DNA of 64,000 nucleotides from assembly GCA_902582605.1 (NCBI GenBank), contig CACHSP010000004.1, positions 1-64,000 on the forward strand, written 5' to 3'. The notes under the pieces were generated by a model that saw nothing but the letters and a program-made list of their open reading frames with translations, did not search any database and was not told where the DNA came from. A program made the translations under genes and the position numbers. Positions 27,522-38,001 of this stretch are shown in pieces; positions within the stretch are counted from its first letter, which is position 1; each line of letters starts with the position of its first letter. The DNA is from an uncultured Pelagibacteraceae bacterium (GTDB lineage: Bacteria > Pseudomonadota > Alphaproteobacteria > Pelagibacterales > Pelagibacteraceae).

Positions 27522-28955
27522 TTGAGAGGAAAGTTCTATGAGCCCATTAATGCAGTATTGGACAAATATAATTGCATCAGTCAGGTGCAAGTAGAAATTA
27601 GGCGCATGAATAATGATTTCCATCAATGTCAAAATTATCAAAATATTAATGAATATCAATTTATAAATAACATGTTTTTTGGGGCGAAAAAAAAGGAAAC
27701 AATTAAAATAGATGATACTAGCAGCAAAGATTTAGAGTTAGTGACTAAAATGAATCAAGAGTTTGCTAAGTCTCTTGATCTAAAAGAAACATTAAATAAT
27801 TCTTTAGAATTAATTATTAAAAGAATTAATGCACAAGCTGCAAATATATTCTTGATCGACGAAAAAAGTCAGTCATTCCAATGTATTGCCTCAAAACATC
27901 AAGCTTATCTTGAAGATTTTGAAATACCAATTACTCAAGGCGTGATGGGTAAAGCAGCAGTGATGAAAAAATGTATTAGAGTAGGTGATGTTCGTAAAGA
28001 CGTAAGAGAAATTGCTGAGTTTTATTTTGATTTAGATAATAAAACAAATTTTACAACATATTCAGTTTTATGTTCGCCTTTAATTGTTTCTGATGAATGT
28101 ATCGGTGTAATACATTGTTTAAATAAAAAAACAAATAATAAATTATTTGAAGAGAATGACAGAAAACTTTTAGAAACTTTGTCTGGACCAGCGGCATTAG
28201 CAATTAATAATGCTAAGATGGCAAAAGATTTGATTGATAAAAACAGAATGCAAAAAGAAATAGAGATAGTTGGTGAAATTCAAAAAACTTTGTTGTCTCA
28301 AAACCAAAAAGAAAATTTTCCAATAGCAGGTATTAACATTCCAGCAAAAGTTGTTTCAGGAGATTTTTATAACTTTGCCGAATTATCCGAGGGTGTTTAC
28401 GGTTTCGGTGTTGCAGATGTCTCAGGAAAAGGAATTAAATCTTCTTTATTAATGTCAAAGGCATCAAGTTTGTATAGATGTTTAAGTAAAACAAATTTTT
28501 CTGCTGCGGAGCTTTTAAATATTTTAAATTCTGAAATATGCGAAACAACATCAAGAGGAATGTTTGTAACAATGTTAATTGGAATTTATGATAGTAATAA
28601 AAAAGAATTGACCTTAGCTAATGCAGGCCATGAACCTCCATTAATTTATAATAATGACGGAAACTTTTCCAACTTTGAGGAAGCAGGACCTCCGCTAGGT
28701 ATTGCTCCTAAATTTAAGTTTAAAGAAACAAAAATTAATTTTTCAAATAGTTCAATGTATATTTTTACAGATGGTATCACTGAGATAAAAGATACAAAAG
28801 GAAATATGTTAGAGTCGGATGGTTTTAAAAATTACATTAAAAAGTATCAACAAACTCCAAATCACCAAAGATTAAATAAAATTGTCGAAGATATTATAAA
28901 GTCAGGTCGAATACAAAAAGATGATTTAACAATTGTAGTTGTTGATGGTTTGTAA
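27522..28955 (+). CDS. GAF-domain SpoIIE/PP2C-type serine phosphatase (true start may be ATG 27606 or 27672)
   Basis: GAF-like region (QAANIFLIDEKSQSFQCIASKH...SVLCSPLIVSDECIGVIHCLNK) then PP2C: VSGDFYNF, ADVSGKGIKSSLLMSKAS, NAGHEPPLIY, DDLTIVVVDG. Confidence 0.9.
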   Translation: MRGKFYEPINAVLDKYNCISQVQVEIRRMNNDFHQCQNYQNINEYQFINNMFFGAKKKETIKIDDTSSKDLELVTKMNQEFAKSLDLKETLNNSLELIIKRINAQAANIFLIDEKSQSFQCIASKHQAYLEDFEIPITQGVMGKAAVMKKCIRVGDVRKDVREIAEFYFDLDNKTNFTTYSVLCSPLIVSDECIGVIHCLNKKTNNKLFEENDRKLLETLSGPAALAINNAKMAKDLIDKNRMQKEIEIVGEIQKTLLSQNQKENFPIAGINIPAKVVSGDFYNFAELSEGVYGFGVADVSGKGIKSSLLMSKASSLYRCLSKTNFSAAELLNILNSEICETTSRGMFVTMLIGIYDSNKKELTLANAGHEPPLIYNNDGNFSNFEEAGPPLGIAPKFKFKETKINFSNSSMYIFTDGITEIKDTKGNMLESDGFKNYIKKYQQTPNHQRLNKIVEDIIKSGRIQKDDLTIVVVDGL

Positions 28956-28966
28956 TTTATTTTATA

Positions 28967-29269
28967 ATGATCTCATTAAGCAAAGTAATGATAGTTTTTG
29001 CAATCGTACTTACAACAATTATGTATTGGGCAACATCAAATGTTTGTAGGTATAATTTTACAATTGAGAGAAAAACAAAACAATTAAATATTATTGCTCA
29101 AGAGCTCAAACCCTCCCTTCCACTTGTAGAAATTTATTATTTTAAAGAGTTAAATTGTAATAGTGTAAACCTGGGATGGGATGTTGACAGAGTATTACGA
29201 AACCTAAACACTATTTCTGTTATGATTTATCAAGAACTTACAACTGACATAAGAGGAAATCCAAATTAA
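28967..29269 (+). CDS. hypothetical protein with N-terminal membrane anchor
   Basis: 100 aa ORF, 12 nt after the PP2C gene. Confidence 0.5.
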   Translation: MISLSKVMIVFAIVLTTIMYWATSNVCRYNFTIERKTKQLNIIAQELKPSLPLVEIYYFKELNCNSVNLGWDVDRVLRNLNTISVMIYQELTTDIRGNPN

Positions 29270-29469
29270 AAGGAAAAAATAATTTATTTTGGCTTTAAAA
29301 CACTTTAAGATCACTTCTTTTAAAAAAATTTGATTAATCTTATTAAAATTCTCCTCAAAAGTGAAAAATGAAATCAATTTTGAGTTGAAATATCAAATAA
29401 TTTTCATTTTTTTTTATAATTCTATTAATTTTAGATAATTTTAGATTAAAAAAAATTATAAATTATTTT

Positions 29470-29793
29470 CTCTAACACAAATTAATTAACTCTAACACAA
29501 AAAGTATTAAATTTTAAAAAATATTCATTTTTGTTGATATTATTGACTTTTTTAATCTTTAAAAAAATTATTTCACTCTAACACAATTAAAAAATACTCT
29601 AACACAATTAAATTTTTGTCTTTGTGTTAGAGAATTATAAATTAACATTTAAAGATGATAAAATAACTTTTTTAAAAAAAATACCTATTTTACTCACTTT
29701 TTTTTTATTATCGCCCATTTTGAACATAATATTTATTTTTGTGTTAGACTAAATGACAATTTTGTGTTAGAGATTCCTTTAATTGTGTTAGAG
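29470..29793. repeat. Array of eight CTCTAACACAA motifs, four direct then four inverted
   Basis: Read directly: + strand at 29470, 29490, 29576, 29597; reverse complement TTGTGTTAGAG at 29622, 29739 (ends AC instead of AG), 29762, 29783. Confidence 0.93.
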
Positions 29794-29813
29794 AAAAAAT
29801 TTTATAACTTATT

Positions 29814-32276
29814 ATGAGTGATCAAGAAGACGATAAAAAAAATATAAATGATGATTCAACTGACAAGGAGTCAGAGAATCAATCAAAAGTTGAAGAAACT
29901 AATCAACCTCAGAGTGAAAATTTACCATCTGATGAGGTACCAGTGGTTGAAAATCAAAATAATGATCAAAATAATGATCAACCGCAAGTTTTCGAAGCTT
30001 CTAACGAAAAAAAAGATGAGAATGAGGATCCAGTCTCTCTAAATAATGAAAAAGAAACTCAAGAGGTCAACGAAAATCAAAATTCTGATACTTTAACTGA
30101 AAAAAAAGATGAAGATGCTGGCTCTGGTCATCAAGTTATACATAAAAAAGATGGGCGATTACATATTTATGTTAGGCAAGATAAATATAAGGGTGAATTA
30201 AAGTCAAAAAATTGGGTTGGAAGACTTTATATCGATGGAAAACAAAAAATTTCATCATCTGGTACGACAAATTTAGATGAGGCAATCCCAATTTTAGAAA
30301 AATGGTTTGATGATGTCCAAGAAGAAAGTGAAAGATTAAAAAATCAAATCAATAATGAAAATCAAAATATAGCTGATCAAAAAACTTCCTTGAGCGAAGA
30401 TAAACAAAAATTGCAAGACACATTAGGAGGATTGGAAAAAATTGAAACATCATTAGACAATACTGAAAACAAATCTCAAGAACAAAGTGCACCAGCTGCA
30501 TCTACTGAAAATGCTGAACCAAGCAAACAAGAGCAACTAAAGGACAAAATTTCAAATATTTTTGGAAAATTAAAAGATATCAAATTAAAAAAGCCCTCTA
30601 TTGGAAACAACTTAAAAAAATCTTCTTTTAATAATGCAAAAGTTGGAAATTTAAAATCAAAATTTGAAAGTTTTTTCAAATCCAAACTTGGAAAATCAAG
30701 CGTACAAGGTGAAGAAATATTGGGAGTAGAACTTGCTAATAAAGAAATAAGATTAGTTCAAGTGTCGAGCAATAAAGCTAATCAATGGGTGTTAGATAAA
30801 CTCTATATCCATCCAGTTGAAGTAAGTGACGATAGTACTCCTATAGAAAATGCTGATAAATTCTCAGAGGAATTAAAATTAGCTATTCAAAAATATAAAA
30901 TATCATCACCAAATGTTGCAATATCAATACCTGTAACTAGTGCTATCATTAGAGTTGTAACAGCACCTTTAATGAATGATGAGGAGTTAGGGAAGGCAAT
31001 TGAAACAAATTCCTTATGGGAAAATTTAGTGCAACTAACAGATAACCTAGAAGATTATTCTATTTTTCATCAAGTTATCAATAGGAATCAAAAAGATAAC
31101 ACCATGGATATTTTATTTGTTGCTTCTAAATTGACTGATATCAATAGTTATACTTCGATAATAAAAAATGCAGGCTTAAACCCAGTCATTATTGATGTAA
31201 AATGTTTTGCTTTAAAGTCAGCTGTAGATCAATCTAATCAATTAACAAATAGACCAGAAGACGCTAATTTAACTGCTGTTTTAGAGTTTGGTTTAGATGA
31301 AAATTATTTGATGATCCTTTATGATAATAATCCAATCATAACAGATATCTTTATAAGAGGACAAGATAGAAAAATTTTACAAGAATCACAGGATGCGGAA
31401 GAAAAAGAGGGATTGGTTAGAAGATACGTTACTCAAGTAAAACAAGCTATTCAAGATTTTGAAACCAAGTATGAAAAAAGAATAAGAAATATCAAAGTTG
31501 TATCCGATATTGAGAGTGTTGAGGATTACCTTGCAAGCTTTAGAAAAAGTTTAATGAATGTTGGGTTCAATACCTTTGATCCAACTGAGGGTTTAAAAAT
31601 TCCAACTCAAAATCAACAAATTTTAGATAACAAAGTTAATAAATCATATTTGTCCACTTCTATTGGACTAGCATTTAGAAAACTAGATGTATTTGGTTAT
31701 TATAAATTTGTAACTGCTGTAAAAAATATCAATTTGTTGCCCGACAGATCAAATGTAATGAAACAAAAAAAGATGAAAGCAATTTCAGGATTTGCTTTTA
31801 AAGGAGTTTCAGCGGCTGTAGCTGCAGTATACTTACTATTATTTGGCTTATCTTTTTGGAATATTTTTTCTTACAATGCAAAATTAGAAGAATATGACAA
31901 AGTTTTAGCAGAACATTCTAAAATAGTAACACAAAAAAAAATAGTAAGTAAAGAACTTGGTATAATCAATACATCTTTAAAATTAAGTAAATCACTTTCT
32001 TCTAACAAAGAATTAACTTACAGAATTTTAGCTCAAGTAGCATCAAGTGTCCCGAATAGAGTAAGGTTTGATAAAGTAGAGTTTAAAGGAACAAGAAATT
32101 TGACTATACAAGGGGTGGCAGCGAGCGATCAGGATATATTAAAGTTTATCGACAATCTAAGTAAACAAAAATTAGTTGAACAAGCATCGTTGTCTTCTAT
32201 GCGACTGCCAAGTAGTCAGGCAGGAACTGCAACAATGAAAGGTTTTAGAGTATTTGTAAAAATTAAAAGAGGTTAG
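29814..32276 (+). CDS. PilM-PilN fusion protein with acidic N-terminal region and an extra small N-terminal domain
   Basis: PilM-like actin fold (EEILGVELANKEIRLVQVSSNKANQWVLDKL), then PilN-like segment (NINLLPDRSN...TM...ILAQVASSVPNRVRFDKVEFKG); followed by pilO-P-Q-B-C. Confidence 0.85.
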   Translation: MSDQEDDKKNINDDSTDKESENQSKVEETNQPQSENLPSDEVPVVENQNNDQNNDQPQVFEASNEKKDENEDPVSLNNEKETQEVNENQNSDTLTEKKDEDAGSGHQVIHKKDGRLHIYVRQDKYKGELKSKNWVGRLYIDGKQKISSSGTTNLDEAIPILEKWFDDVQEESERLKNQINNENQNIADQKTSLSEDKQKLQDTLGGLEKIETSLDNTENKSQEQSAPAASTENAEPSKQEQLKDKISNIFGKLKDIKLKKPSIGNNLKKSSFNNAKVGNLKSKFESFFKSKLGKSSVQGEEILGVELANKEIRLVQVSSNKANQWVLDKLYIHPVEVSDDSTPIENADKFSEELKLAIQKYKISSPNVAISIPVTSAIIRVVTAPLMNDEELGKAIETNSLWENLVQLTDNLEDYSIFHQVINRNQKDNTMDILFVASKLTDINSYTSIIKNAGLNPVIIDVKCFALKSAVDQSNQLTNRPEDANLTAVLEFGLDENYLMILYDNNPIITDIFIRGQDRKILQESQDAEEKEGLVRRYVTQVKQAIQDFETKYEKRIRNIKVVSDIESVEDYLASFRKSLMNVGFNTFDPTEGLKIPTQNQQILDNKVNKSYLSTSIGLAFRKLDVFGYYKFVTAVKNINLLPDRSNVMKQKKMKAISGFAFKGVSAAVAAVYLLLFGLSFWNIFSYNAKLEEYDKVLAEHSKIVTQKKIVSKELGIINTSLKLSKSLSSNKELTYRILAQVASSVPNRVRFDKVEFKGTRNLTIQGVAASDQDILKFIDNLSKQKLVEQASLSSMRLPSSQAGTATMKGFRVFVKIKRG

Positions 32277-32278
32277 TT

Positions 32279-32968
32279 ATGGCGCTAGATATGAATATAG
32301 ACTTAAAAAATTTGAACATGTCTGATTTAAAAGACAAAATTTTAAAGTTAGCAGACAAAAAAACTCTAATAAAGATTGGTATTATTTCTGGTGCAATTAT
32401 ATTTTTTCTAATTATTTACTATGCAATTCTAAGTCCGATGGTGGAAACTAGAAAAGTTAAATTAGATGACATGAATTTGAAAAAAGAAGAAACCATACAA
32501 TTCACAAATGATGTTAGCTCGATGAAGAAAAAAATTAAAAAACTTAAACCTGAATATGAGAAATATTCGAGCCTTTTTCACTCAAAAGCTGAAGTTGAGG
32601 GTCTTTATCAGACACTAAGTATTTTTGCAGGACAAAATGATTTGGTAATTTCAAAAATTGAAAAAAAACAAATTAAAAAGGTTCTTAAAGCAGAAGCTTT
32701 GGCAAAAGCGGATGGAAAATCTGCAGGCAAATCTAATAAGAAAGATGCTAAAAATATAAAGAATATTGCCTATTATTTAATACCAGTTGACTTTGAAATT
32801 GACGGCAATTTTATTGGATATATCAAATTTAAAAGAGCTCTTTCCTTATCTAACAAGATGTTAAACTTTGACAAAGAGTCCATACAAGTGGTACAAGGAG
32901 ATTCAACTGGAGCGATAAAAGTTAGAGGAACATTAACAATAGTGGGGTTACCAGATGAATTTTTTTAA
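32279..32968 (+). CDS. pilO: type IV pilus inner-membrane alignment protein PilO
   Basis: Single N-terminal TM, coiled coil, PilO-like C-terminal ferredoxin-like region; between PilN and PilP. Confidence 0.82.
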   Translation: MALDMNIDLKNLNMSDLKDKILKLADKKTLIKIGIISGAIIFFLIIYYAILSPMVETRKVKLDDMNLKKEETIQFTNDVSSMKKKIKKLKPEYEKYSSLFHSKAEVEGLYQTLSIFAGQNDLVISKIEKKQIKKVLKAEALAKADGKSAGKSNKKDAKNIKNIAYYLIPVDFEIDGNFIGYIKFKRALSLSNKMLNFDKESIQVVQGDSTGAIKVRGTLTIVGLPDEFF

Positions 32969-33461
32969 AGTAATTTTTATTTCCTTACTCTTTATATATG
33001 TGTCAAATGTTTCAATGGCTGATAGTCATGATAATGAGCAAAATATAATTGAAAAAGCTAAAGAGATTAATCAAAAAGTTAAGGAAAATCAGGCAAATAC
33101 ACAAGCAAATATTAGCTCTGAAATAAATAATGAGGAACCACTTCCATTAAATGATCCTTTTGTAGGTGATAGTTCTTTATCAGGGGGCAACACTATGTCA
33201 CTCGGCGACCCGCAAGAAGCACAAAATGAAATGAGTTTATATAAGTTTAAGTTAGTTGGAGTAATGTCAGCTGAGCAAAATCAAGGATTTGTTTCATTAA
33301 TCAATGCGGCTGGAGATATTATTACAATTAGAATGTTTGAAGAATTAAGTCCAGGTGTAAAATTAGTTGCAGTTAATAATAAAGAGGCTGTATTTGAAAA
33401 GAATAGCGAGTCATTATTAGTAATAAATTTTAAAAATCAAATTTCTGAAAGAAGCTTTTAA
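32955..33461 (+). CDS. pilP: PilP-like pilus assembly protein
   Basis: Secreted N-terminus, DPF motif (LPLNDPFVGD), YKFKLVGVMSAEQNQGFVSLINAAG; between pilO and pilQ. Confidence 0.8.
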   Translation: MNFFKVIFISLLFIYVSNVSMADSHDNEQNIIEKAKEINQKVKENQANTQANISSEINNEEPLPLNDPFVGDSSLSGGNTMSLGDPQEAQNEMSLYKFKLVGVMSAEQNQGFVSLINAAGDIITIRMFEELSPGVKLVAVNNKEAVFEKNSESLLVINFKNQISERSF

Positions 33462-33464
33462 TTT

Positions 33465-35015
33465 ATGAAATTTAAAAATAAAATATCTTTAATTTTTATT
33501 CCTTTACTATTTTTAATGTTGACTGGCTGTGCTGAAAAAATGGCTAAGAAGACTTTTAAGCATAATACTCCACTTATTAAAACAGATGTTAAGCAGCTTG
33601 GGAAAAAAGAGTTAGAAAAAAGTGCTGAAATGGGACCAATTCCAATTGAGGGAGATGTTGTAAAACTTAAAAAAAGAAAACAATTATCATCTGTTAAAGA
33701 AAGAAACTATCTATTAATTTCTGAGGAATTTGAAAATTTAAAACAAAATGTTTCATTTAAATTTCAAAATCTAGATTATAAAGAAGCAATGGCTTTAATG
33801 GCTGAAGTAGGTGAGATAAATATTTTAGTTGGTGAAGAAGTTGCCGGTGCAATAACTGCTGAACTAGACAATGTTCCATGGGATAAAGCATTTAATGCAC
33901 TATTGGATTTAAAAAGTTATGCAGCAGATATTGATGTTGCAAGTAATATTATTAGAGTGTCAACTCCATCAAATTTAACTTCTCAAGAAAGCTATAAATC
34001 AGCTAGAGCATCAGCCGTTAAAAAGAAAGTAGAATTAGAAGACTCAGTTGAACCTATCATCTCAGAAATTTTTAGATTGTATTATATTTCGCCTGCAGAG
34101 GCTAAAGCTACAATTACAGAACTTTTTACTACAGTAGGAACTGGTTCAAGTTTTATGCCTATACAAGTTACCGAGGAAAAAACTACAAGATCAATAATAG
34201 TCAGAGGTAAGGAAAAAGACTTAGATATTGTTGACAAAGTTATAAGAGAAATTGATAAAAGAACTAAACAAGTCTTGATCGAAGCTTTCATTGTAGAGGC
34301 AACATCGACTTTTGAACAAGCATTAGGAAAAAAGATGGGTGCTGCATATACAAGAAATAGAGAAAGAATTGGTGGTACGATTGGCGGAAGTTCAGTTGGT
34401 GCAGCTAGCGGACCTGGAGCTGAAATATCTGATAGCACTGGTGCATTTTCTAGTTCTGGAGGAACAGATAATCTTTTTAGTTTTGGTACTGCTGGTGCAA
34501 CAAGTGGTATTGGTATTTTGAGAAGAACTGGCTCAGCAGTTCTAAAGTTAGAGTTAGATGCTCTCGAGTCTCAGGGATTAGGAAAAACTGTTTCTAATCC
34601 AAAATTATTTACTTTAGATAACCAAACAGCAAGTATTAAACAAGGTGAGCAAATTCCTGTCTCTGGAGGTGATGGAGCTGATACTTTTGCTGATGCTGCG
34701 TTGAAACTTACTGTAACACCAAATATAATTGGTGATGGAAATGTAATGTTAACAATAGTGGTTAATAATGATACACCTAACAGATCGACACCTGGCACAC
34801 CTGGAATAAATACAATGGAAATAAATACTAAATTGCTTGTAGCGGATGGAGACATTGTAGTTATTGGTGGTATCAAGAAAAATAATGTGGCTAGTAGTAA
34901 GCGGGGTGTTCCAGGTGCGAGCAAAGTACCTGTGGTTGGAAGTTTATTAAAAGGAACATCAAAAGCTGATACAATGAATGAGCTATTAGTATTTATAGCT
35001 CCAAGGATTTTGTAA
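33465..35015 (+). CDS. pilQ: type IV pilus secretin PilQ (probable lipoprotein)
   Basis: Lipobox LMLTGC; STN-like and secretin signature QVLIEAFIVEATSTFEQALG, VSNPKLFTLDNQTASIKQGEQIPV, VVIGGIKKNN. Confidence 0.93.
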   Translation: MKFKNKISLIFIPLLFLMLTGCAEKMAKKTFKHNTPLIKTDVKQLGKKELEKSAEMGPIPIEGDVVKLKKRKQLSSVKERNYLLISEEFENLKQNVSFKFQNLDYKEAMALMAEVGEINILVGEEVAGAITAELDNVPWDKAFNALLDLKSYAADIDVASNIIRVSTPSNLTSQESYKSARASAVKKKVELEDSVEPIISEIFRLYYISPAEAKATITELFTTVGTGSSFMPIQVTEEKTTRSIIVRGKEKDLDIVDKVIREIDKRTKQVLIEAFIVEATSTFEQALGKKMGAAYTRNRERIGGTIGGSSVGAASGPGAEISDSTGAFSSSGGTDNLFSFGTAGATSGIGILRRTGSAVLKLELDALESQGLGKTVSNPKLFTLDNQTASIKQGEQIPVSGGDGADTFADAALKLTVTPNIIGDGNVMLTIVVNNDTPNRSTPGTPGINTMEINTKLLVADGDIVVIGGIKKNNVASSKRGVPGASKVPVVGSLLKGTSKADTMNELLVFIAPRIL

Positions 35016-36766
35016 TGTTAAAAATTAGTAGAGAAAGTGAAATTAATTTAGTTAATGTTTTAATTGATAACGATATTATTTCTGGGAAAGATTTAATTAA
35101 TATCAAAAAAATAAGCACTGAAAGTAATAAATCTCAAATTGATGCTATTTTTGAATTAAAGCTTACGGATGAAAAAAAGATTATTGATTTATTAATCAAG
35201 GAACAAAATTTAGAGACAGTCGATTTAAAAAAAGTTGAGATTACTGATGAAGTTAAAACAGTATTGCCATCAAATTATATAAAAGTAAATTTTGTAGCAC
35301 CATTTAAGATTGATGGAAAAACTTTGCATATAGCAATTTCAGATAGCTCAAAACTTGGATTAATGAGAAATTTAAAAGCAATTACAAAAAAAAATATTGA
35401 ACTTCATGCTGCGAAAGTTTCTGATATCTCAGAGTTCATAGAAAGATTATCAAGTGAAACTGATGAAGTAACAATTGCATCAATACGTGATGAAAATAGA
35501 AAAAAAATAAAAACGTTTGACTCTGATTTAGGTGAAGCTGGTGAAGTCCTTGAGAAAGCTCCTGAAGAAGACATTGAAGCCATTGAAAATGAATCTGAGG
35601 TTATAAAATTTAGTACTGCTGTAGTAGCGGAAGCTATTAAAATGGGAGTAAGTGATATTCATATTGAGCCTTATAGATTTTCATCAAGAGTAAGGTATCG
35701 ATTAGATGGAATGTTGCAAGAACAAGAACAATACAAACAGTTTCTACATGACAATTATGGTGCAGTTGTAACTCGATTTAAGATTATGGGTAAACTAGAT
35801 ATTGCTGAAAGAAGATTACCGCAAGATGGGGCAATAAACTTTAAAATAGAAAATAAAGTAATCGATCTTCGTTTATCGATATTACCAACTGCAAACAACG
35901 AAAGAATTGTAATGCGTATTTTGAATAAAGATGCAGGTGATATTAAATTAGAACAATTGAATTTTGAAGAACAAGATTTAAAAAATTTAAGAAAAGCAAT
36001 TCATAGTACTCAGGGATTAATATTAGTTACTGGTCCAACTGGATCTGGTAAATCAACAACTTTGTATAGTATTTTAAAAGAAGTTAGTAAACCTCACTTA
36101 AATATATTGACAGCCGAAGATCCTGTTGAGTATGAATTAGATGGAGTAGGACAAGTTCAAATTAAAGATCACATTGGCTTAACATTTGCCTCAGCTTTAA
36201 GATCTTTTTTAAGACAAGACCCAGAAATTATTCTTGTTGGGGAGATGCGAGATAAAGAGACTGTTGATATTGGGTTAAAAGCAGCTTTAACAGGTCACTT
36301 AGTATTTAGCACACTTCACACTAATGATGCACCAAGTACAATTACTAGATTACAAAACATGGGAACACCTGACTATTTAATCAGTGCTGCAACCCAATTA
36401 GTTGTTGCTCAAAGGTTAGCAAGAAAAAATTGTAAAGATTGTAGGGTGCCTGACGATGATGTTAATCCTAAAGTTTTACAGGATTTAGGTTTCAGTGCCG
36501 AACAAGCATCCAGAGTTAAAGCTATTAAAGGTAAAGGTTGTGCTAAATGCAGTAATACTGGTTACAAAGGTCGACAAGGTATTTATGAAATTCTAGTGGT
36601 ATCAAAACCCCTTAAGGAAGCAATCTTACGTCAAGCTACTACTCCTGAATTAAGAGAGATCGGTATTAAAGAGGGTTTTCAAACTATGAAAGATATGGGG
36701 AGAAGACTAATTGCATCGGGAGAGCTTAATTTTAGAGAATACGAAAGAGTTCTTTCAGGTGAATAA
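35015..36766 (+). CDS. pilB: type IV pilus extension ATPase PilB
   Basis: LILVTGPTGSGKSTTLYSILKEV, LRQDPEIILVGEMRDKETVDIGLKAALTGHLVFSTLHTNDAPSTITRL, zinc CxxC pairs (CKDC, CAKC). Confidence 0.95.
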   Translation: MLKISRESEINLVNVLIDNDIISGKDLINIKKISTESNKSQIDAIFELKLTDEKKIIDLLIKEQNLETVDLKKVEITDEVKTVLPSNYIKVNFVAPFKIDGKTLHIAISDSSKLGLMRNLKAITKKNIELHAAKVSDISEFIERLSSETDEVTIASIRDENRKKIKTFDSDLGEAGEVLEKAPEEDIEAIENESEVIKFSTAVVAEAIKMGVSDIHIEPYRFSSRVRYRLDGMLQEQEQYKQFLHDNYGAVVTRFKIMGKLDIAERRLPQDGAINFKIENKVIDLRLSILPTANNERIVMRILNKDAGDIKLEQLNFEEQDLKNLRKAIHSTQGLILVTGPTGSGKSTTLYSILKEVSKPHLNILTAEDPVEYELDGVGQVQIKDHIGLTFASALRSFLRQDPEIILVGEMRDKETVDIGLKAALTGHLVFSTLHTNDAPSTITRLQNMGTPDYLISAATQLVVAQRLARKNCKDCRVPDDDVNPKVLQDLGFSAEQASRVKAIKGKGCAKCSNTGYKGRQGIYEILVVSKPLKEAILRQATTPELREIGIKEGFQTMKDMGRRLIASGELNFREYERVLSGE

Positions 36767-36768
36767 TA

Positions 36769-38001
36769 ATGGAAGCTTTTACTTATAAAGGAATATCTGA
36801 CGGAAAATATGTTGAGGGTGATATTGAGGCACTTAATCTTGATGAGGCTTCACATTTATTAAAAGAAAAAAAAATAATAATCACAAATATTATTAAGTCT
36901 AAGAAAAAGACTGGTGAAAAGAAGAAAAAAAGCGGATCCTCACTTTTCGGCAAAAGTAAAAAAGTAAAAGTAGAGGATATTCTTATATTTTCTAAACAAT
37001 TTGCAACAATGGTTAAAGCAGGTTTGCCGATCCTTCAAGTTTTAGCAATGCTTAGAGATCAAATGGAGAGCCAAGGGATTAAAGATATAATTGAGGATAT
37101 AAGAAAAAGTTTAGAAGGTGGAGTAAACTTATCAAAATGTTTTGAAAAATATCCTCAACATTTTGACAATGTGTATGTCAACTTAATCAAGGCAGGAGAA
37201 GCTAGTGGTAAATTAGATGTATTCTTACTTAAAATAGTAGACTCGCTTGAAAAAAAAGAAAAAATTAAGAAGAAAATTAAATCTGCATTAATGTACCCAG
37301 CAATAATGTTTACAGTGGCAATAACTGTTAGTGCGTTCATGCTTGTTAAAGTAGTACCTGTATTTGCTAAAATGTATGATGGGATGGGTTTAGAGTTGCC
37401 AGCAGCTACAGCAACCATCATGGCTATGAGTGATTTTTTAAGAGGAACAGGTGGAAAAGTTATCCTTTTTGGAAGTATAATAGGTTTTTTTGGATTCAGG
37501 TTTATTACAAAAAGAAACGCTGCAATTCGTTTTAAATGGCATAAACAAGTTTTAAAACTACCATTATTTGGGGATATGATTTTAAAATCTATGTTAGCTA
37601 GAATTTCATTGATTATGGGAAATTTAAGTGCAGCTGGTGTAAACTTATTAGAGAGCTTGGAGATTGCAAAATCTGTCAGTAACAATGATGTAATTACGGA
37701 TGCTCTAGAGAATGTTAAAAAAGGAGTTTTTTCGGGAGACACATTAACAAAACTTTTTTTAAAAGAGCCATTGTTCCCCCCAACATTTAGCCAACTAATC
37801 TCTGTAGGAGAACAAACAGGTCAATTAGATGAAATGTTTAATTCAGTAGCTACTTACTATGAGGAAGAATTCGATACTACAGTTGATAATATGTCTAGTC
37901 TAATAGAACCGATCATGATTGTTTTTATGGGGGTGATGATTGGTGGACTAATGATTGCAATGTACTCACCAATATTTAACGTTGGTGCTTTAATAAATTA
38001 G
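36769..38001 (+). CDS. pilC: type IV pilus inner-membrane platform protein PilC
   Basis: FSKQFATMVKAGLPILQVL, YVNLIKAGEASGKLD, LISVGEQTGQLDEMF, LIEPIMIVFMGVMIG. Confidence 0.95.
   Translation: MEAFTYKGISDGKYVEGDIEALNLDEASHLLKEKKIIITNIIKSKKKTGEKKKKSGSSLFGKSKKVKVEDILIFSKQFATMVKAGLPILQVLAMLRDQMESQGIKDIIEDIRKSLEGGVNLSKCFEKYPQHFDNVYVNLIKAGEASGKLDVFLLKIVDSLEKKEKIKKKIKSALMYPAIMFTVAITVSAFMLVKVVPVFAKMYDGMGLELPAATATIMAMSDFLRGTGGKVILFGSIIGFFGFRFITKRNAAIRFKWHKQVLKLPLFGDMILKSMLARISLIMGNLSAAGVNLLESLEIAKSVSNNDVITDALENVKKGVFSGDTLTKLFLKEPLFPPTFSQLISVGEQTGQLDEMFNSVATYYEEEFDTTVDNMSSLIEPIMIVFMGVMIGGLMIAMYSPIFNVGALIN

Follow-up and report, generated by a model that had tools for sequence, protein, structure and literature searches.

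The 64,000-nucleotide stretch of DNA analysed here (the window) comes, according to protein searches, from a member of SAR11, Pelagibacteraceae, and encodes a type IV pilus locus in which an array of short repeats directly precedes a pilMN-O-P-Q-B-C operon (Table 1). SAR11 are among the most abundant bacterial groups of the ocean and have streamlined genomes; the function of their pili is not established. The first gene of the operon encodes a fusion of PilM and PilN, as indicated by matches to PilM_2 (PF11104; aa 304-508, E=1.4e-20, 74 bits versus a cutoff of 27) and PilN (PF05137; aa 738-800, E=6e-9, 36 bits versus a cutoff of 22.8), with TIGR01175 falling short of its cutoff of 133 at 70 bits over model positions 5-213 of 348. 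Hydropathy analysis detects one strong hydrophobic helix at approximately aa 660-686, and because this helix precedes the PilN part, the N-terminal domain (NTD) described below and the PilM part should be cytoplasmic and the PilN part periplasmic. The two genes in the pilO and pilP positions have no Pfam match. A PilD-type peptidase and PilY1 are encoded upstream of the array, and in most genomes of the main clade the array is directly preceded by the genes for a GAF-SpoIIE phosphatase (27522-28955) and a 100-aa protein (28967-29269), which may form part of one regulatory unit with the array.

Table 1. Features of the array and of the adjacent pilus operon (window coordinates)
Feature	Position	Strand	Remarks
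Array cluster 1	29470..29500	+	Two direct CTCTAACACAA copies (29470, 29490); pair conserved in most main-clade loci
Element B1, TGTTGATATTATTGACTTTTTT	29532..29553	+	Between clusters 1 and 2; phylogenetic footprint
Array cluster 2	29576..29632	mixed	Copies 29576 (+), 29597 (+), 29622 (-)
Element B2, TACCTATTTTACTCACTTTTTT	29682..29703	+	Weaker second B copy; phylogenetic footprint
Conserved CCCATTTTGAACATA block	29714..29728	+	Immediately 5' of the variant copy; candidate promoter component
Array cluster 3	29739..29793	-	Variant copy GTCTAACACAA (29739) and exact copies 29762, 29783
pilMN	29814..32276	+	PilM-PilN fusion with N-terminal extension, 820 aa; Pfam matches
NTD of PilMN, HQVIHKKDGRLHIYVRQDKYKGELKSKNWVGRLYIDGKQKISSSGTTNLDEAIPILEKWFDDVQE	30129..30323	+	aa 106-170; DNA-binding-type; conservation, AF2, profile and fold matches
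Rest of operon	32279..38001	+	Two genes in pilO/pilP positions, pilQ secretin, pilB ATPase, pilC

The initial annotation described the array as eight CTCTAACACAA-type copies, four direct and four inverted, and all of its coordinates and strands proved correct, seven copies being exact and the eighth, at 29739-29749, differing from the consensus (hereinafter, the variant copy). Equally accurate were the start spacings within the clusters (20, 21, 23 and 21 bp), the innermost pair of perfect inverted copies separated by 14 bp (29597-29607 versus 29622-29632) and the location of the array in the largest non-coding stretch of the window, which spans 544 bp (29270-29813), the runner-up being only 196 bp long. 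Reading of the window had revealed no further full copies, and this result extends to the genome assembly (966,519 bp in 33 contigs, 78% complete and, accordingly, missing about 22%), in which all seven exact copies fall inside the array. The frequency of the motif here is not that of the background: under a first-order Markov model of the gap, 0.00015 exact copies are expected on average in the gap versus the seven observed. When up to one mismatch is allowed, as the initial annotation had proposed, the genome contains about 19 copies outside the array, against about 19 for a reversed-pattern control. Given that all exact copies lie in the array and that the one-mismatch copies are at the control level, the motif, if it is an operator, has no visible regulon beyond the pilMN locus in this 78% complete genome. 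A chance or low-complexity artefact is excluded by the Markov expectation together with the genome-wide copy count.

Across 50 distinct upstream regions from SAR11 relatives (359 sites), the TCTAACACAA core is essentially invariant and the C that precedes it is mostly retained, with the flanks containing no signal beyond A+T; the extension of three copies to CTCTAACACAATTAAA, which had been noted in the window and does hold there, is accordingly not a property of the motif among the relatives. The sites of the array form conserved islands in otherwise unconserved AT-rich DNA, and the motif does recur upstream of orthologous pilM genes, those with the NTD, so that neither of the two refuting outcomes named in the initial annotation (a background frequency of the motif or orthologues without such repeats) materialized. 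Neighbouring sites of the same orientation follow each other at 20-23 bp, most often at 21, and the distances between clusters vary among clades by about one helical turn (for example, 116-118, 126-129 and 139). The phasing between clusters is approximately 10.5-10.75 bp, with none of 300 jittered sets attaining the value observed, in a test that counts genomes as independent and so overstates the significance. The conservation, the spacing of about 21 bp and the phasing of the clusters support the proposal of a phased regulator array or nucleoprotein switch; the control of pilus expression that was proposed along with it is still something that we infer. The perfectly inverted innermost pair, with its 14-base gap, might seem to call for hairpins in the leader RNA or a cruciform in the DNA, but it is sequence and spacing, not orientation, that are conserved, the arrays of L078-L085 consisting of direct repeats throughout, so that such structures are barely credible as the basis of the array. 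The orientation of the middle copy of cluster 2 also differs among clades.

The variant copy and its equivalents have a non-consensus nucleotide in position 1 (G, sometimes A) in nearly all genomes of the main clade, and the deep clade of L080, L081 and L085 likewise retains GTCTAACACAA once, in reverse orientation; this is likely to be a conserved, weaker site. Footprint alignment reveals two more conserved elements. Element B (TGTTGATTTTATTGACTTTTTT) occurs once or twice between the clusters; B1 is found, within five mismatches, in most of the loci with the NTD, including those in the pilT-pilM context, and in none of the loci without it, and the element could be a site for a bending protein or a part of the promoter. 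The second is a CCCATTTTGAACAT block that is conserved ahead of the variant copy. A scan for consensus promoters produced no convincing site and nothing above the level of shuffled sequences. The possibility that the variant copy is an extended -10 element with TTGAAC as the -35 element was rejected because the distance between the two shifts by 1-2 bp between genomes and because the deep clade has the same variant in the other orientation. In two loci (L045, 5208-5931, and L079, 5102-5935), the array is enlarged to 10-11 copies, partly through repeated blocks that contain the motif and B-like sequence, which indicates that the array can grow by duplication.

The likely binder, absent from the earlier reading of the sequence, is a DNA-binding-type domain fused to the product of the first gene of the operon, namely, the NTD of PilMN. 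Nearly invariant and about 60 aa in length, it is flanked by hypervariable linkers, with 32 of the 73 alignment columns invariant among 27 loci and an identity of about 60-88% where the PilM/PilN core is about 50% identical; such strong conservation is to be expected if the NTD reads an invariant site. AlphaFold2 predicts three antiparallel strands and a helix (pLDDT 87 for the 73-aa model and 93 for the 55-aa model), that is, a bbb-alpha fold as opposed to the winged helix of the OmpR type. The NTD produced no useful match in searches of Pfam, NCBIfam and PDB sequences, and its only convincing class-wide sequence match is to the N-terminus of an alphaproteobacterial tyrosine recombinase. In hhalign comparisons, the NTD matched seven recombinase N-termini, including the seed hit, at 96.5%, and five N-termini without the original hit at 93.6%. 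With the trimmed 55-aa model, Foldseek placed 3rmp_C first both in probability and in TM-score among the matches listed (probability 0.85, TM 0.62, 2.6 A; E=0.45); this chain belongs to an entry on attP substrate recognition by P4-like integrases and is an arm-binding domain. There was no Foldseek match at E<0.001 for the trimmed model, E-values being weak with a domain of this size, and no integrase among the 50 matches listed for the 73-aa model. Judging by these profile and model comparisons, the NTD resembles the arm-type (AP2-like) DNA-binding domain of tyrosine recombinases, which is also present in the Tn916 and lambda integrases.

The similarity to recombinases extends from the predicted three strands and helix and the profile match at the N-terminus to the short sites of about 10-11 bp arranged in arrays. 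However, the NTD is fused to PilM, without a catalytic domain, and the sites are located at a pilus operon rather than at an attachment site. This likeness to integrase arm-binding domains, together with the iteron-like spacing of about 21 bp, would be compatible with an array derived from a mobile or replication element, be it remnant att arm sites, plasmid-style iterons or DNA uptake sequences. Such an origin appears highly improbable, considering that no recombinase or Rep gene was noticed among the ORFs listed at 24-38 kb, that no exact copies are dispersed through the genome assembly and that the array stays with pilM in many lineages. Neither the NTD nor the array has a match in viral contigs or phages. 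A DNA uptake sequence was rejected, since it would be present in hundreds of scattered copies, as opposed to seven exact copies in one array, and plasmid iterons or an origin fit poorly with a pilus locus at which no adjacent Rep or initiator gene was noticed and an array that accompanies pilM in three contexts.

The PilM relatives fall into two classes, long proteins with the N-terminal extension and short ones without it, and the presence of the NTD coincides with that of the array. Among the first 61 relatives, the nine genomes with the NTD are exactly the nine with at least three exact copies of the motif. In the genus sample, at least three exact core copies are found upstream of all 59 informative PilM genes with the NTD and not even one upstream of any of the 64 without it, although these 123 genomes do not amount to 123 independent tests, there being only two or three change points. 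Searches with the NTD yield one match per genome, in PilM, and likewise, only one array was found per genome: all places with paired motifs in 62 genomes, including those in G221 and G300, which were inspected directly, adjoin pilM or sit at the ends of contigs, where they are compatible with the same locus. In a phylogeny of the PilM/PilN core, constructed with the NTD excluded, the domain and the array change together three times, and the supported branches require at least two such changes; one case, L185, which has both and sits inside a clade without the NTD, has a placement that is not significant (AU p=0.21).

Gene context is a stronger control than the tree against a single inherited accident. 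The pair of NTD and array is found in three contexts: after the genes for the SpoIIE phosphatase and the hypothetical protein, in most of the main clade; after pilY1, in the other deep-branching genes with the NTD; and divergent from pilT. The pilM genes without the NTD are mostly divergent from pilT as well, with 49-150 bp between the two genes and no motif (L154-L173, L186-L190). At the same pilT-pilM junction in L182-L184 (PilT 66% identical), pilM does encode the NTD and the gap, of 344-388 bp, is filled with motif copies; here, drift has affected the NTD and the sites alike. One of the three contexts is common to relatives that lack the array, and the array thus accompanies the NTD in differing neighbourhoods. 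Most of the genes without the NTD occupy a different locus from most of those with it, and two alternative types of type IV pilus locus exist within one SAR11 genus.

The comparative data strongly suggest that the NTD is a DNA-binding domain, and we consider it quite probable that the array is what it binds. A separate, trans-encoded regulator might read the array instead, with the NTD performing other work, such as protein-protein or nonspecific DNA contacts; most bacterial operator arrays are, after all, read by separate regulators, and binding by the NTD is a prediction. This would, however, require a coincidence, namely, the strict co-occurrence of the array with a fused DNA-binding-type domain just downstream, their joint change on the tree and their joint drift in L182-L184, and so we deem it improbable. 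On balance, we favour the interpretation of the array as the operator of the pilMN operon, with PilMN itself as the ligand that sets the expression of its own operon, although for autoregulation as such, and for its sign, the indications are weak. Against this interpretation weigh the small number of change points, the insecure placement of L185, the lack of a Pfam or PDB sequence match and of a Foldseek match at E<0.001 for the NTD, the scan that located no convincing promoter and the different loci of most genes with and without the domain. In the proposed mechanism, the cytoplasmic NTD of PilMN would be connected by a variable and flexible linker to the actin-like PilM domain, which the membrane helix separates from the PilN part in the periplasm; cooperative binding of several membrane-bound molecules to the phased TCTAACACAA sites, all on the same DNA face, would go along with bending or looping of the AT-rich spacers, and transcription of pilMN-O-P-Q-B-C would probably be set by the balance between free PilMN and PilMN built into pilus machines. 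Autorepression is the first guess for the sign because the array ends 21 bp ahead of the pilMN start codon, with the sites occupying the whole leader.

Several features invite the alternative that the array is a tether that docks the pil locus, and with it the surrounding chromosome region, at the membrane pilus complex or else clusters PilMN, with transcription control being secondary. A simple repressor would not require as many as eight sites, PilMN is membrane-anchored according to hydropathy, and only one array was found in each genome. Furthermore, CadC is an established case of a membrane protein that is captured and clustered by its own DNA sites (PMC6320335), and dividing Pelagibacteraceae have been observed with filaments taken to be pili (cited in PMC12636525). 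Nevertheless, in all three contexts, the array is located directly 5' of its own operon, a position more in keeping with an operator than with a free anchor on the chromosome, and we regard the tether as rather unlikely. Conceivably, the two roles are combined: PilMN might serve both in the pilus platform and as a sequence-specific DNA binder, such that the assembled machine docks on the array before its own operon and couples assembly state, expression and, possibly, chromosome position, through a domain recruited from a tyrosine recombinase. We offer this broader scenario only tentatively.

An autoregulatory PilMN would have the closest parallels in the one-component regulators of the ToxR/CadC type, which are integrated in the membrane and with which it would share an N-terminal cytoplasmic DNA-binding domain, a single membrane helix and a periplasmic C-terminal part, the topology of PilMN being predicted. 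By contrast, the NTD is predicted to adopt an integrase arm/AP2-like fold, and the rest of PilMN is a structural component of the type IV pilus rather than a dedicated sensor; lacking a winged helix for DNA binding, PilMN falls outside the ToxR family, although it would work like one of its members. Compared with the PilM and PilN proteins of the type IV pilus alignment subcomplex, PilMN has the same PilM_2 and PilN matches and is likewise encoded by the first gene of a pilM-N-O-P-Q type operon, but the two proteins are fused and joined to an extra DNA-binding-type domain that close relatives (64 genomes) lack. Looping of the AraC, lac and lambda type exemplifies cooperative operator arrays with helical phasing. 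As in those systems, the sites lie on one helical face, with clusters about 8-13 turns apart; here, however, there are up to eight or more sites, with a very tight 10-bp core, at a single locus per genome.

Thus, a DNA-binding domain of the integrase type, along with a private operator array, appears to have been acquired by a structural protein of the pilus, and, if this is true, there would be a direct physical link from a membrane machine to its own genes, without a separate regulator. In the open literature, we found no description of SAR11 pilus regulation, of this array or of a PilM that binds DNA. The question is reducible to a domain of 65 residues and a DNA fragment of 324 bp, and a clean natural comparison is provided by related PilM genes that have both features or neither. 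Within the genus, a PilM match is present in 142 of the 399 genomes (26 of the 57 that are nearly complete), and the pilus is therefore patchy in SAR11.
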